NCBI RefSeq assembly: GCF_019602855.1
Contig: NZ_CP080767.1
Coordinates: 1,674,001-1,738,000, forward strand
Direction of reading: 5' to 3'
Source of the DNA: Cupriavidus pinatubonensis
GTDB taxonomy: Bacteria > Pseudomonadota > Gammaproteobacteria > Burkholderiales > Burkholderiaceae
DNA length: 64,000 nucleotides
The position numbers and the translations under genes are program-made. How positions within the stretch are numbered: position 1 is the stretch's first letter; every line of letters begins with the position of its first letter. Positions 11,474-18,682 of this stretch are shown here, one piece after another. The notes below the pieces were generated by a model, which was given only the letters and a program-made list of their open reading frames with translations, had not been told where the DNA came from and ran no database searches.

Positions 11474-13429
11474 TCATCGTCCGTTTGTACTAGACGCGCC
11501 GGATTCCTGCAGACCCGTTTCCTGCAACCAGGCGACGATGCGCTCCGCCGCCTGTTCGGCCGTATCGGCCGTGGTGTCGATACGGATTTCGGGGCGCTCG
11601 GGCGGCTCGTAAGGCGAGTCGATGCCGGTGAAGTTCTTCAGCTCGCCACGCCGCGCCTTGCGGTAGAGGCCCTTGGGGTCGCGCAGCTCGGCCACGTCGA
11701 GCGGCGTGTCGATGAAGACCTCTGCAAACTCGCCGTCGCCAGCAAGCGCGCGCGCCATCTCGCGCTCCGAGCGGAACGGCGAGATGAAAGAAACCAGCAC
11801 CACCAGACCCGCATCGAGCATCAGCCGCGCCACCTCGGCCACGCGCCGGATGTTCTCCACGCGGTCGGCTTCAGAGAAGCCCAGGTCCTTGTTCAGGCCG
11901 TGGCGCACATTGTCGCCGTCGAGCAGGTAGGTGTGATGGCCCAGCGCGTGCAGGCGCTTTTCCACGAGGTTGGCAATGGTCGATTTTCCCGCGCCGGAGA
12001 GCCCGGTGAACCAGACAATGCGCGGCGCCTGGTGCTTGAGCGCGGCATGCGCGCGGCGGTCGACGTCGATGGCCTGCCAGTGCACGTTCTGCGCCCGCCG
12101 CAGTGCAAAGTGCAGCATGCCCGCGCCGACGGTGTTGTTGGTAAGGCGGTCGATCATGATAAAGCCGCCCAGGTCGCGGTTGCGCGTGTAAGGGGCGAAC
12201 GCGACCGGCTGGTCCAGGTGCAGGTTGCACACGCCGATTTCGTTCAGCTCCAGCGTGCGCGCGGCCAGGTGCTCGAGCGTGTTGACGTTGACCTTGTACT
12301 TGGGCTGGGCCACGGTAACGCCGACGGTACGCGTGCCCAGCTTGAGCAGGTAGGGGCGGCCGGGCAGCATGGCATCCTCGTTCATCCACACCAGTGTGGC
12401 TTCGAACTGGTCTGCCACCTCGGCCGGGTCTTCCGCGCATGCCAGCACATCCCCGCGGCTCACGTCGATCTCGTCGGCCAGCGTCAGCGTCACCGCCTGG
12501 CCGCGCATGGCTTGCCCGCACTCGCCATCGGCGCCGACGATGCTGGCCACGCGGCTTTCCCGGCCGGACGGCAGCGCACGTACGCGATCGCCGCAGCGGA
12601 TCTCGCCCGCACTGACGGTGCCGGCGAAGCCGCGGAAGTCGAGGTTGGGGCGGTTGACCCACTGCACCGGCAGGCGGAACGATTCGTCCTGCGCCGGCGC
12701 GCGGTCGACCGGCACGCTTTCGAGGTGCGCCATCAGCGTGGGCCCGTGGTACCACGGTGTATTGGCACTTGGTTGCGTGATGTTGTCTCCATGCAGCGCG
12801 GACATCGGGATGCAGACGATGTCATTGAGTCCGATCTGCCGCGCAAAGTCACGGTACTCGGCTTCGATGCGGTCGTAGACCTCGCGCGAGTAGTCGACCA
12901 TGTCGAGCTTGTTGATGGCCACCACCACGCGGCGGATGCCGAGTGTCGACACCAGGTAGCTGTGGCGGCGCGTCTGCGTCTGCACGCCGCGGCGCGCGTC
13001 GACCAGCAGGATCGCGAGATCGGCGGTGGATGCGCCCGTCACCATGTTGCGCGTGTACTGCTCGTGCCCGGGTGTGTCGGCGACGATGAACTTGCGCTTG
13101 TCCGTGGCGAAGAAGCGGTACGCCACGTCGATGGTGATGCCCTGTTCGCGCTCCGCGGCGAGGCCGTCGACCAGCAGCGCGAAGTCGAGATTCTCGCCCT
13201 GCGTGCCCATCTTCTTCGAATCGGCTTCGAGTTGGGCGAGCTGGTCTTCGAACAGCATCTTCGATTCATACAGCAGCCGGCCGATCAGCGTGCTCTTGCC
13301 GTCGTCGACGCTGCCGCACGTGATAAAGCGCAGCAGGCCCTTGTGTTGCTGCGCACGCAGGTATTGCCCGATGTCGTCATTGGCCGTGACCGGCACGGTT
13401 TCCGTCTGCATTGCCATCAGCGCTTCCAT
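11474..13429 (-). CDS. cysNC: Bifunctional sulfate adenylyltransferase subunit 1/adenylylsulfate kinase
   Basis: This 651-residue cytoplasmic enzyme is a CysN-CysC fusion (NodQ type). The N-terminal GTPase half has the G1 loop GSVDDGKST (39-47), the DTPGHEQY segment and NKLD, and works with CysD to make APS from ATP and sulfate. The C-terminal APS kinase has its own P-loop GLSGAGKST (about 476-484), the DGDNVRHGLNKDLGF segment and SFISPFR, and makes PAPS. The ATG overlaps the cysD stop by one base (TGATG), a sign of translational coupling. ATGs a few codons downstream could also serve. CysDNC gives PAPS directly, the donor for the sulfotransferase encoded divergently next door. Confidence 0.93.
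   Translation of the reverse strand: MEALMAMQTETVPVTANDDIGQYLRAQQHKGLLRFITCGSVDDGKSTLIGRLLYESKMLFEDQLAQLEADSKKMGTQGENLDFALLVDGLAAEREQGITIDVAYRFFATDKRKFIVADTPGHEQYTRNMVTGASTADLAILLVDARRGVQTQTRRHSYLVSTLGIRRVVVAINKLDMVDYSREVYDRIEAEYRDFARQIGLNDIVCIPMSALHGDNITQPSANTPWYHGPTLMAHLESVPVDRAPAQDESFRLPVQWVNRPNLDFRGFAGTVSAGEIRCGDRVRALPSGRESRVASIVGADGECGQAMRGQAVTLTLADEIDVSRGDVLACAEDPAEVADQFEATLVWMNEDAMLPGRPYLLKLGTRTVGVTVAQPKYKVNVNTLEHLAARTLELNEIGVCNLHLDQPVAFAPYTRNRDLGGFIMIDRLTNNTVGAGMLHFALRRAQNVHWQAIDVDRRAHAALKHQAPRIVWFTGLSGAGKSTIANLVEKRLHALGHHTYLLDGDNVRHGLNKDLGFSEADRVENIRRVAEVARLMLDAGLVVLVSFISPFRSEREMARALAGDGEFAEVFIDTPLDVAELRDPKGLYRKARRGELKNFTGIDSPYEPPERPEIRIDTTADTAEQAAERIVAWLQETGLQESGASSTNGR
11475..11492 (-). 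promoter_or_regulatory. Putative steroid-regulon operator, LuxR 1 site
   Basis: On the minus strand the sequence reads TAGTACAAACGGACGATG, with a perfect right half. It overlaps the last codons and stop of cysNC and ends 84 bases before the LuxR 1 start codon. It suggests auto- or cross-regulation. Confidence 0.6.
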
Positions 13430-14325
13430 CAGAAGTACCCCTCTTGCTTTTTCTTCTCCATCGACCCGGCCGAATCGCTGTCGATCAGCCGCCCCTGGCG
13501 CTCCGACGTGGTGGCCAGCAGCATTTCCTGGATGATCCCGCCGAGCGTGTCGGCTTCGCTGTCGATCGCGCCGGTGAGCGGATAGCAGCCCAGCGTGCGG
13601 AAACGCACTTTGCGCAGGGCCGGCGTCTCGCCCGGGCGCAGCGGCAGGCGTTCGTCATCGACCATGATCATCGTGCCGTCGCGCTCGACCACGGGACGCT
13701 CCTTGGCGTAGTACAGGGGCACGATCGGTATCTTGTTCAGGTAGATGTATTGCCAGATGTCGAGCTCGGTCCAGTTCGACAGCGGGAACACGCGCAGGCT
13801 TTCGCCCTTGCGCTTGCGGGCGTTGTACTGGCGCCAGAGTTCGGGGCGTTGCATCTTCGGGTCCCAGCGGTGCTGCGCAGTGCGCACCGAGAACACACGC
13901 TCCTTGGCGCGCGATTTCTCTTCGTCGCGACGCGCACCGCCGAACGCGGCATCAAAGCCATAGTGGTCGAGCGCCTGCTTGAGCCCCTGCGTCTTCCAGG
14001 TGTCGGTGTGCACGGCCGAGCCGTGTTCGTGCGGGCTGATGTTCCGCGCGATGCCTTCCGGATTGATATGCACGCGCAGGTCGAGCCCGAGCCGTTCGAC
14101 AGTCTGGTCGCGGAACTCGATCATTTCGCGGAACTTCCACGTCGTGTCGACGTGCAGTAGCGGAAAGGGCGGCCGGGCCGGGTGGAAGGCCTTCATCGCC
14201 AGGTGCAGCATGACGGAGCTGTCCTTGCCGATGGAATAGAGCATGACGGGGTTTTCGCATTCCGCCACCACTTCCCGCATGATGTGGATGCTCTCCGCCT
14301 CCAGTTGCTCCAGGTGGGTCAACAT
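13429..14325 (-). CDS. cysD: Sulfate adenylyltransferase subunit 2
   Basis: This 298-residue protein is the ATP-sulfurylase catalytic subunit. It has the PP-loop MLYSIGKDSSVMLHLAMKAF and family segments FPLLHVDTTWKFREM, DAAFGGARRDEEKSRAKER and GCYPLTGAI. The start at 14325 is chosen because GAGGAGAT lies directly before it and because the length then matches E. coli CysD (302 residues); an upstream in-frame ATG would add 44 unrelated residues. It forms a complex with CysNC. It heads a minus-strand operon, and an operator copy lies 89 bases upstream, so it seems to belong to the steroid regulon rather than the cysteine regulon. Confidence 0.94.
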   Translation of the reverse strand: MLTHLEQLEAESIHIMREVVAECENPVMLYSIGKDSSVMLHLAMKAFHPARPPFPLLHVDTTWKFREMIEFRDQTVERLGLDLRVHINPEGIARNISPHEHGSAVHTDTWKTQGLKQALDHYGFDAAFGGARRDEEKSRAKERVFSVRTAQHRWDPKMQRPELWRQYNARKRKGESLRVFPLSNWTELDIWQYIYLNKIPIVPLYYAKERPVVERDGTMIMVDDERLPLRPGETPALRKVRFRTLGCYPLTGAIDSEADTLGGIIQEMLLATTSERQGRLIDSDSAGSMEKKKQEGYF

Positions 14326-17697: not shown

Positions 17698-17719
17698 CCG
17701 TGGTCACCGGAAACCTGCC

Positions 17720-18682
17720 ATGACACGCTACTTTGCCTTCAACGGCGACGCCGACGGCCTGTGTGCCCTGCAGCAACTGCGCCTGGCCTGTCCCGGCGAC
17801 GCGACACTGGTCACCGGCGTCAAGCGCGATATCCACCTGCTCGACCGTATCGACGCCGGGCCGGGCGATACGGTCGCCGCGCTCGATATTTCGCTCGAGC
17901 AGAACCGCGGCGGCCTGCTGCGGCTTCTCGCGGCCGGGGCGCGGGTGGATTACTTCGACCACCATCACGCGGGCGAATTACCCGCCCATCGCGGGCTCTG
18001 CGCGCATATCGACGAAGGCGCGGACGTGTGCACAAGCATTCTGGTGGACCGCCATCTTGGCGGTCGCCACCGGCGCTGGGCGGTCACGGCTGCCTTCGGC
18101 GATAACCTGTCAGGCGTGGCCCGGCTGATGGCTGCGCAAGCCGGGCTCGACGCGTGCGATATCGCCGTGCTGGAGCGACTGGGCACCTGCCTCAACTACA
18201 ACGCCTACGGCGAGTGCGTGGCCGATCTGCATTTCGACCCCGCCGAGCTGGCCGCGCACATGCTGCCGTTTGCGGATCCACTGGACTTCGCGGCCCAATG
18301 CGCGGCTTACCGGGTGTTGTGTGCCGGCTATGCGGACGACATGGCGCAAGCGCGCTGCCTGGCGCCGTCGCATGAGGTCCCTGGTGCGGCGCTGCTGGTC
18401 CTGCCCGACGCCGCGTGGGCGCGGCGCGCGATTGGCGTGCTGGCCAATGAACTGGTAAGCGGGCGCCCCGGCGACGCCATCGGTCTGTTGTCGCCCAAGA
18501 CGGACGGCGGCTTTGCCGTCAGCGTGCGGGTGCCCGCGCACAGCGCCACCGGCGCAGCCGACTTCTGCCGCGGCTTCGATACCGGCGGCGGCCGGCGCCT
18601 GGCAGGTGGCATCAACCACCTGCCGGACGCCGACGTGGACCGCTTCACGCGCAGCTTCACAGACTGCTTCGGCCGCGCGTAG
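17720..18682 (+). CDS. DHH-family phosphoesterase, possible PAP phosphatase
   Basis: This 320-residue protein is a DHH/DHHA1 phosphoesterase. Metal-binding motifs are NGDADG (8-13), ALDIS (Asp57), the DHHHAG motif (80-85) and a DHHA1-type C-terminal GGGRRLAGGINHLP. In the same superfamily NrnA hydrolyses 3'-phosphoadenosine 5'-phosphate (PAP) and short RNA. Standing last in an operon with a sulfotransferase and near PAPS synthesis genes, this protein is well placed to remove inhibitory PAP. That role is inferred from context; the motifs alone only show a phosphoesterase. Confidence 0.75.
   Translation: MTRYFAFNGDADGLCALQQLRLACPGDATLVTGVKRDIHLLDRIDAGPGDTVAALDISLEQNRGGLLRLLAAGARVDYFDHHHAGELPAHRGLCAHIDEGADVCTSILVDRHLGGRHRRWAVTAAFGDNLSGVARLMAAQAGLDACDIAVLERLGTCLNYNAYGECVADLHFDPAELAAHMLPFADPLDFAAQCAAYRVLCAGYADDMAQARCLAPSHEVPGAALLVLPDAAWARRAIGVLANELVSGRPGDAIGLLSPKTDGGFAVSVRVPAHSATGAADFCRGFDTGGGRRLAGGINHLPDADVDRFTRSFTDCFGRA

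Follow-up and report, generated by a model that had tools for sequence, protein, structure and literature searches.

Rhizobia hold a described case of sulfate activation reserved for a single sulfotransferase, the NodPQ-NodH system, in which a dedicated CysD/CysNC set stands under a specialised regulator and the acceptor is the Nod factor. A second case is mycobacterial: the cholesterol gene table of PMC6429209 lists Rv3529c, Rv3530c and Rv3531c as a conserved hypothetical protein, a possible oxidoreductase and a hypothetical protein, respectively, and PMC8882603 identifies Rv3529c as the sulfotransferase Stf1, for which no printed substrate was found in the open-access literature. Here we analyse a 64,000-nucleotide window of the 7.55-Mb genome of Cupriavidus pinatubonensis (contig NZ_CP080767.1; G000:C2:1674001-1738000), which like the 9,10-seco steroid degradation clusters of Comamonas and mycobacteria contains KshA and KstD-, HsaA-, HsaC- and IpdA-like genes. 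Beside them lie six genes in two divergent arms, cysNC-cysD running leftward and DUF1214-sulfotransferase-short-chain dehydrogenase (SDR)-DHH running rightward (Table 1). We read this module as an accessory, steroid-linked sulfonation step dependent on 3'-phosphoadenosine 5'-phosphosulfate (PAPS) and, judging from sequence comparison, consider it somewhat probable that these genes form a self-sufficient unit for sulfonation under steroid control, with a steroid or steroid-derived acceptor.

The divergent layout, the genes and their coordinates are as an earlier note on this DNA had given them. Its view that the domain calls are well supported applies to four of the six; the DUF1214 protein passes its Pfam model narrowly and the DHH protein matches no Pfam or NCBIfam family at E<=0.001 (DHHA1 14.6 bits vs. 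a cut-off of 25.9). Both of these calls can still be upheld, because the first has a solved relative and the second a DHH fold in its structure model. The DUF1214 protein matches chain 6ans with 649 bits and a fold template-modelling (TM) score of 0.94, the only other good fold matches being 2p3y, 3vb9 and 3u07, whose titles give no function. Both parts of the sulfate-activating complex are present, a CysD of equivalog grade and a fusion of the CysN GTPase to adenosine 5'-phosphosulfate (APS) kinase, the latter with the P-loops GSVDDGKST and GLSGAGKST. In an alignment of 105 of the 106 sulfotransferases collected (L070 was dropped for a stop), residues G97, R260 and S268 are kept in 105/105 and R100 and H259 in 104/105; they belong to the 5' loop GxxRxGTT and the 3' motif HR...S, which we take to form the PAPS site.

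The earlier note had allowed that these might be the only cysD and cysN genes of the genome, serving cysteine synthesis, and here the genome answers otherwise. A separate assimilation locus (L003) holds a second cysD (49% identical to that of the module), a second cysN that has no kinase domain (50%), a cysH and a haemoprotein of the sulfite/nitrite-reductase type, so the module is not the sole, cysH-linked cysDN set. The L003 CysH passes the APS-reductase model TIGR02055 (267 vs. 235 bits), fails the PAPS-reductase model TIGR02057 (134 vs. 254) and carries KDCCGIRK and CEPC, presumably the cysteine motifs of APS reductases; the cysteine route therefore needs no PAPS. The APS kinase family scores 232 bits at the module, and its sole other match in the genome (C2:1341492, L009; 22.2 bits vs. 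a cut-off of 21.1) was rejected as a second kinase, being a 504-aa reverse-frame protein with a P-loop and no NCBIfam match at 1e-15. PF13469 and PF00685 each find one gene genome-wide, the module sulfotransferase, and no other by these two families, though other sulfotransferase families were not searched genome-wide. The one convincing APS kinase of the genome thus sits next to the one sulfotransferase detected, which suggests that PAPS is produced for this enzyme; PAPS synthesis by CysD and CysNC is itself strongly indicated. A second, dedicated CysD/CysNC set for one sulfotransferase is also present in NodPQ-NodH, which differs in serving the Nod factor, a biosynthetic rather than a catabolic purpose; 90 of the 133 plasmid records that match the window's cys DNA are from Sinorhizobium.

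For the removal of 3'-phosphoadenosine 5'-phosphate (PAP), the inhibitory by-product of sulfonation, the DHH protein is the candidate. Its AlphaFold model, built from a 16-sequence alignment, has a mean predicted local distance difference test score (pLDDT) of 94 and a DHH/DHHA1 fold, and its best PDB fold match, ahead of RecJ and NrnA, is 8a8k (E 3.8e-12, TM 0.72), the PAP phosphatase MtPAPP of Methanothermococcus thermolithotrophicus. The metal ligands of MtPAPP are given as Asp8, Asp10, Asp57, His76-His77 and Asp127, with His6 at longer range (PMC10322725). The window protein has two-metal ligands in D10, D12, D56, D80-H81-H82 and D128; D10 and D12 are kept in 15/15 covering rows and D56, D80, H81, H82 and D128 in 16/16, the exception being the His6 position, which is Asn in 15/15 (Asn8 in the window). 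Like MtPAPP, the protein is encoded beside PAPS synthesis genes, but identity between the two is 12%, and MtPAPP serves archaeal sulfate assimilation; as no sequence family matches, we say that the DHH protein works like MtPAPP, not that it is one. The genome has no CysQ above the curated cut-off, a strict one by which a CysQ-like gene in L059 scores just 81 bits. Two weak matches were rejected, one as a SuhB-like inositol phosphatase (300 bits, cut-off 332), the other as HisN (322 bits, cut-off 275). In other modules CysQ takes the place of the DHH protein: the order on a Paraburkholderia sprentiae plasmid is DUF1214-sulfotransferase-VOC-CysQ-cysD-cysNC, and a CysQ-like gene (81 bits, below the cut-off) occupies the same gap in G369. 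The note's suggestion that the DHH protein removes PAP is thereby raised to a probable PAP phosphatase, by fold, metal ligands and CysQ substitution; PAP removal by the module is strongly inferred from the model, and the PAPS-PAP economy as a whole looks well supported by the gene comparisons.

The module recurs in related genomes. A sulfotransferase search of 398 family genomes at E<=1e-40 matched 65, 59 of them close (at least 49% identity, one in two pieces) and six distant, and neighbourhoods of up to 20 kb were fetched for 20 of the 65 (17 close, three distant). DUF1214, SDR and DHH genes lie in the stretch of all 17 close loci, the DHH gene within 10 kb of the sulfotransferase each time, and cysD and cysNC in 13/17; in the remaining four the contig also carries an APS kinase, at a distance of about 11 to 16 kb. 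The steroid gene hsaC (E<=1e-80) occurs in 82 of the 398 genomes, and all 59 close sulfotransferases fall within these, 316 genomes having neither (Fisher p ~7e-52, uncorrected for descent). In 35 of the 58 placed cases, many of them drafts, hsaC and the sulfotransferase gene are split between contigs or separated by more than 100 kb; in G110, a genome of two contigs, each contig has one of the two. Among 44 genomes tested for APS-kinase frames of CysNC size (at least 640 codons), such frames are found in 19/19 with a close sulfotransferase and in 2/12 that have hsaC without one. The two are G369, with a distant sulfotransferase module, and G301, where the contig ends about 270 bases past cysD and the missing sulfotransferase is therefore an assembly gap.

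A second line of evidence is a shared candidate operator. Two exact inverted copies of the 16-mer TAGTCCGCCCGGACGA lie between the arms, each about 90 nt from a start codon (with an alternative ATG at 14457, cysD would span one copy). The earlier note's near-identical steroid operators on both arms are thus borne out, and the pattern stands also before hsaC (TAGTCCGCTAGGACGA) and the SnoaL/SDR genes (TAATCCACCCGGACGA). With up to three mismatches TAGTCCGCCCGGACGA has seven matches in the window vs. 0.75 expected, a number reached by 0/100 shuffles, of which three (1482, 1496 and 16672) have three mismatches and need not be operators. The degenerate pattern TARTCCNNNNGGACGA occurs four times in the whole genome, all four inside the window and two of them at the module.

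The stretch upstream of DUF1214 is covered in 16 of the 20 fetched loci, with both inverted copies in 12 and one copy in two (L048, L049); no clear copy was found there in L055 and L057 (2/16), where cysD is not a neighbour. In four relatives every site falls in one stretch that holds sulfotransferase and hsaC: 4/4 within 47 kb in both G336 and G321, 7/7 within 72 kb in G101 and 7/7 within 62 kb in G177. G172 and G213 have one site each elsewhere, and G251 shows one close to hsaC and another elsewhere, with none at the module. When up to one mismatch is allowed, the 20 kb surrounding hsaC contain sites in five loci of g24, g10 and g20 (L152, L154-L157), mostly 60-130 nt ahead of hsaC or hsaA, and none in L153. 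Five g11 genomes carry the exact pattern twice each at the module, two of them with one further site. Sharing of the operator with steroid genes is therefore well supported by these site maps for this genus and for some others; for the g11 relatives the picture is unclear. The LuxR-type regulators 1 and 2 are 53% identical, and a relative of regulator 1 lies within the module stretch of 14/14 loci (L041-L054).

Comparison with the Stf1 system provides a further, separate link. The window sulfotransferase is 32-34% identical to a Tsukamurella protein and to PDB 2zq5, which we take to be Stf1, and in the sulfotransferase tree the Burkholderiaceae and sphingomonad proteins form a clade separate from the actinobacterial ones. 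A Tsukamurella-led query gave at least 570 confirmed relatives, and the figures that follow describe the best 80 of them, which are not a sample, in stretches of at most 10 kb, often shorter, either side of the sulfotransferase. The SDR adjoins the sulfotransferase in 80/80 of these actinobacterial loci, many of them mycobacterial, and a DUF1214-like gene precedes it in 79/80 (the exception is a 4.2-kb contig). The order here is DUF1214-SDR-sulfotransferase; cysD and cysNC are in 16/80 stretches, a KstD-like gene in 34/80 (Pfam-checked in one locus) and hsaC in 2/80. SDRs of Tsukamurella, Mycobacterium, Sphingomonas and two Burkholderiaceae loci pass NF005909, the actinobacterial ones tested being two, one of them mycobacterial (L064, L090). 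The DUF1214-SDR-sulfotransferase set of Gordonia araii directly follows KshA (encoded on the other strand), HsaA and HsaC, and Mycobacterium terramassiliense has a KstD-like gene and a DmpG-type aldolase on the same side. From order and annotation, not sequences, Rv3529c, Rv3530c and Rv3531c are inferred to be the same triad and thus its likely tuberculosis counterparts, which the cholesterol gene table gives no function (PMC6429209). Co-occurrence and this separate actinobacterial synteny support a link of the module to steroid degradation.

Several observations weigh against the proposed reading. Shared descent inflates the co-occurrence statistic, and 23 of the 82 hsaC genomes have no close sulfotransferase (G301 being the assembly break), which shows the module to be dispensable for the core pathway; of the six genomes with a distant sulfotransferase, five are without hsaC. 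No DHH relative is found in the 80 actinobacterial stretches, and three annotated plasmids (Vibrio, Paraburkholderia) carry DHH relatives of 43-45% identity that are not close to any annotated PAPS genes, four of the nine matching records having been looked at and the fourth (Variovorax) being without annotation. The PAPS modules on a Tsukamurella plasmid and on that of P. sprentiae have no evident steroid genes nearby, and the acceptors of the sulfotransferase family may therefore vary. As to the operator, the reversed control pattern has two sites in this genome vs. four for TARTCCNNNNGGACGA, and hence the position of the sites rather than their number counts as evidence. Over 13 relatives, TAGTCCN4GGACGA has 49 sites vs. 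63 for the reversed control, and only one of six g11 hsaC loci has a site (L149, one mismatch, about 100 nt before hsaA). The operator as proof of co-regulation everywhere was accordingly rejected, as the g11 loci fail and the count is not above the reversed control.

Two distant modules may be described here. L058 (G296), from a genome with no hsaC match, is a PAPS module with a 69% identical DHH protein, a 32% identical sulfotransferase and a cysNC split over three alignment pieces. On a plasmid of Novosphingobium sp. KACC 22771 (L065, NZ_CP117882.1 784592-789394), cysD/cysNC-like DNA lies about 1 kb from a 37% identical sulfotransferase.

In the mechanism that we propose, CysD and CysNC would convert sulfate and ATP to PAPS, with which the sulfotransferase would sulfonate a steroid, or a catabolic intermediate derived from one, at a hydroxyl group; the likeliest acceptor is a compound that the SDR of the operon produces or consumes. 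PAP would be turned into AMP and phosphate by the DHH protein, the DUF1214 protein would most likely act on or bind the sulfonated product, and the LuxR regulators, acting at TAGTCC-N4-GGACGA, would switch on both arms together with the steroid genes. What has stood of the earlier reading is a full gene set for making PAPS, transferring the sulfonate and, by fold, removing PAP, along with the operator on both arms, and co-occurrence supports the steroid link; steroid control and a steroid acceptor are less firmly indicated, and any purpose of the sulfonation is conjecture, as it was in that note. A catabolic processing step seems to us a better reading than plain export, since SDR, sulfotransferase and DUF1214 protein are kept together as a fixed set in two phyla and no transporter is common to the compared stretches. 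A more specific version, in which the SDR sets the alcohol, the sulfotransferase esterifies it and the DUF1214 protein uses the sulfate as leaving group in an elimination or rearrangement, making this a true catabolic step whose chemistry would be shared by two phyla, including the mycobacterial cholesterol cluster with Stf1, seems to us rather unlikely. A weak PDB relative (E 0.0028), the polyketide synthase domain 4gox, presumably does just this in curacin chemistry, sulfonating a hydroxyl so that sulfate can leave; it is part of a polyketide synthase and has no steroid link.

The purpose of the step could, of course, be conjugation only, with toxic or surplus steroids or phenolic intermediates such as 3-hydroxy-secosteroids made soluble, storable or exportable and the SDR and DUF1214 proteins as helpers. 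Animal steroid sulfotransferases conjugate steroids to such ends, the Gordonia triad follows HsaA and HsaC, and the genome has, in other places, six genes of the sulfatase family whose products could undo the sulfonation; however, none of the six lies inside the window, the three-enzyme set exceeds what conjugation needs, and the compared stretches share no transporter (only named query genes were mapped). We hold this to be doubtful, if quite conceivable. The same wording would suit an acceptor that is no steroid at all, such as a lipid, quinone, surfactant or signal wanted during growth on steroids. Bacterial sulfotransferases use varied bacterial metabolites (PMC3141025), and related DUF1214-sulfotransferase-PAPS modules occur where steroid genes are not evident nearby or in a genome without hsaC (G296). 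A different acceptor would fit poorly with the complete nesting of the close sulfotransferases in hsaC genomes, with an operator pattern common to hsaC and the SnoaL/SDR genes, and with the second association in actinobacteria.

Two further alternatives concern parts of the steroid-linked sulfonation unit. The DHH protein may be a nuclease or cyclic-dinucleotide phosphodiesterase with no role in PAP removal, given that the RecJ, NrnA and GdpP folds match too and that the Vibrio and Paraburkholderia plasmid relatives lie away from annotated PAPS genes. This is quite unlikely in view of the top fold match, a PAP phosphatase, of the constant proximity to the sulfotransferase (17/17), of a DHH protein 69% identical in G296 despite a sulfotransferase only 32% identical there, and of the CysQ or CysQ-like gene in the DHH slot of two other modules. 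As for ordinary sulfate assimilation duplicated into the cluster to supply cysteine, the module does hold cysD and cysN homologues, but the reading was rejected as extremely improbable on account of the second assimilation locus: that locus has its own APS-reductase-type CysH, its proteins are merely 49-50% identical to those of the module, and an APS kinase and a sulfotransferase are outside such a route.

Among the titles and abstract openings listed by searches of the open-access literature (subscription literature being outside the search), none describes a bacterial steroid-sulfonation step, and the word sulfotransferase is absent from PMC13101464 and from the review PMC8399759. As far as these searches reach, the module suggests that bacteria attach sulfate at some undescribed step of steroid breakdown. 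If so, a dedicated PAPS economy in a degradation regulon would bring a kind of reaction new to a pathway that has been under study for decades. It would also give a function to DUF1214 proteins (the title of 6ans reads 'putative uncharacterized protein'), show that bacteria have a DHH-type PAP phosphatase like the archaeal one, and supply a harmless system in which to study the orphan sulfotransferase found among the mycobacterial cholesterol genes. The fate of steroid hormones and bile acids in soil and water would be touched as well, in that sulfated steroids might be bacterial and not only animal products.

Table 1. Module genes, regulators, steroid genes and candidate operator copies, by position in the window
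Feature	Position	Strand	Details
LuxR-type regulator 1	10239..11390	-	383 aa; GerE 23.5 bits, exactly at cut-off
cysNC, ATP-sulfurylase GTPase subunit fused to APS kinase	11474..13429	-	651 aa; NF004035 1085 bits, PF01583 228 bits
cysD, ATP-sulfurylase small subunit	13429..14325	-	298 aa; NF009214 equivalog, 573 bits
Operator copy facing cysD	14417..14432	-	exact TAGTCCGCCCGGACGA; kept in relatives
Operator copy facing DUF1214 gene	14462..14477	+	exact TAGTCCGCCCGGACGA; kept in relatives
DUF1214 protein	14572..15684	+	370 aa; PF06742 27.6 bits vs. Pfam cut-off 25
PAPS-dependent sulfotransferase (predicted)	15681..16871	+	396 aa; PF13469 153 bits
Short-chain dehydrogenase	16906..17697	+	NCBIfam NF005909 (PRK07890), 367 bits vs. 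cut-off 258
DHH phosphoesterase, probable PAP phosphatase	17720..18682	+	320 aa; model pLDDT 94, fold match 8a8k, metal ligands
LuxR-type regulator 2	22028..23227	+	399 aa; GerE 31 bits
HsaA-like hydroxylase	25085..26326	+	PF08028
KstD-like flavoprotein	26354..28108	+	FAD_binding_2 297 bits
KshB-like ferredoxin reductase	29505..30569	+	Fer2 and NAD_binding_1
Operator copy before SnoaL/SDR genes	34533..34548	+	TAATCCACCCGGACGA
Operator copy before hsaC	40997..41012	+	TAGTCCGCTAGGACGA
hsaC-like extradiol dioxygenase	41076..41972	+	BphC_D1 and Glyoxalase
ipdA/ipdB-like CoA transferase subunits	41986..43700	+	CoA_trans 105 bits (first subunit); second 14.9 bits, below cut-off
KshA, 3-ketosteroid 9alpha-hydroxylase	60656..61795	+	KshA_C PF19298 251 bits

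The names HsaA-, KstD-, KshB- and hsaC-like in Table 1 are given from domain and context. Besides the two LuxR-type regulators listed, a third lies at 38774-39985 (GerE 25 bits), and a relative of it sits between the module SDR and the DHH gene in L055 and L056. Part of the SDR/SnoaL/LuxR block to which this region belongs (33572-39985) is present in G214, a genome with no sulfotransferase or APS kinase match; in G291, which has hsaC and no sulfotransferase match, both the block and the module are absent from 40 kb of recognisable cluster (L169-L170). Block and module may have been gained and lost together, to judge from these patterns. The SnoaL-like protein of the block (34548-35057), which lies behind an operator site, has weak similarity to the bile-acid 7alpha-dehydratase BaiE (E 9e-4), and this suggests a hydroxysteroid dehydratase; an operator before such a gene gives only a hint of hydroxylated steroids as substrates.

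Elsewhere in the window, genes for DUF1329 (1596-2978), YCF48-like (55769-56767) and MMPL (56801-59233) proteins possibly form a steroid or lipid transport system. Inside the cluster, a riboflavin RibBA-like gene (18711-19808; 337 bits, below the cut-off of 513) perhaps supplies flavin to the many flavoenzymes. A chromate transporter and ChrB at 3643-5871, and ArsC, an SBF-family transporter and a small ArsR-like gene (read by eye) at 7875-9722, represent metal and arsenic resistance adjoining the steroid cluster.

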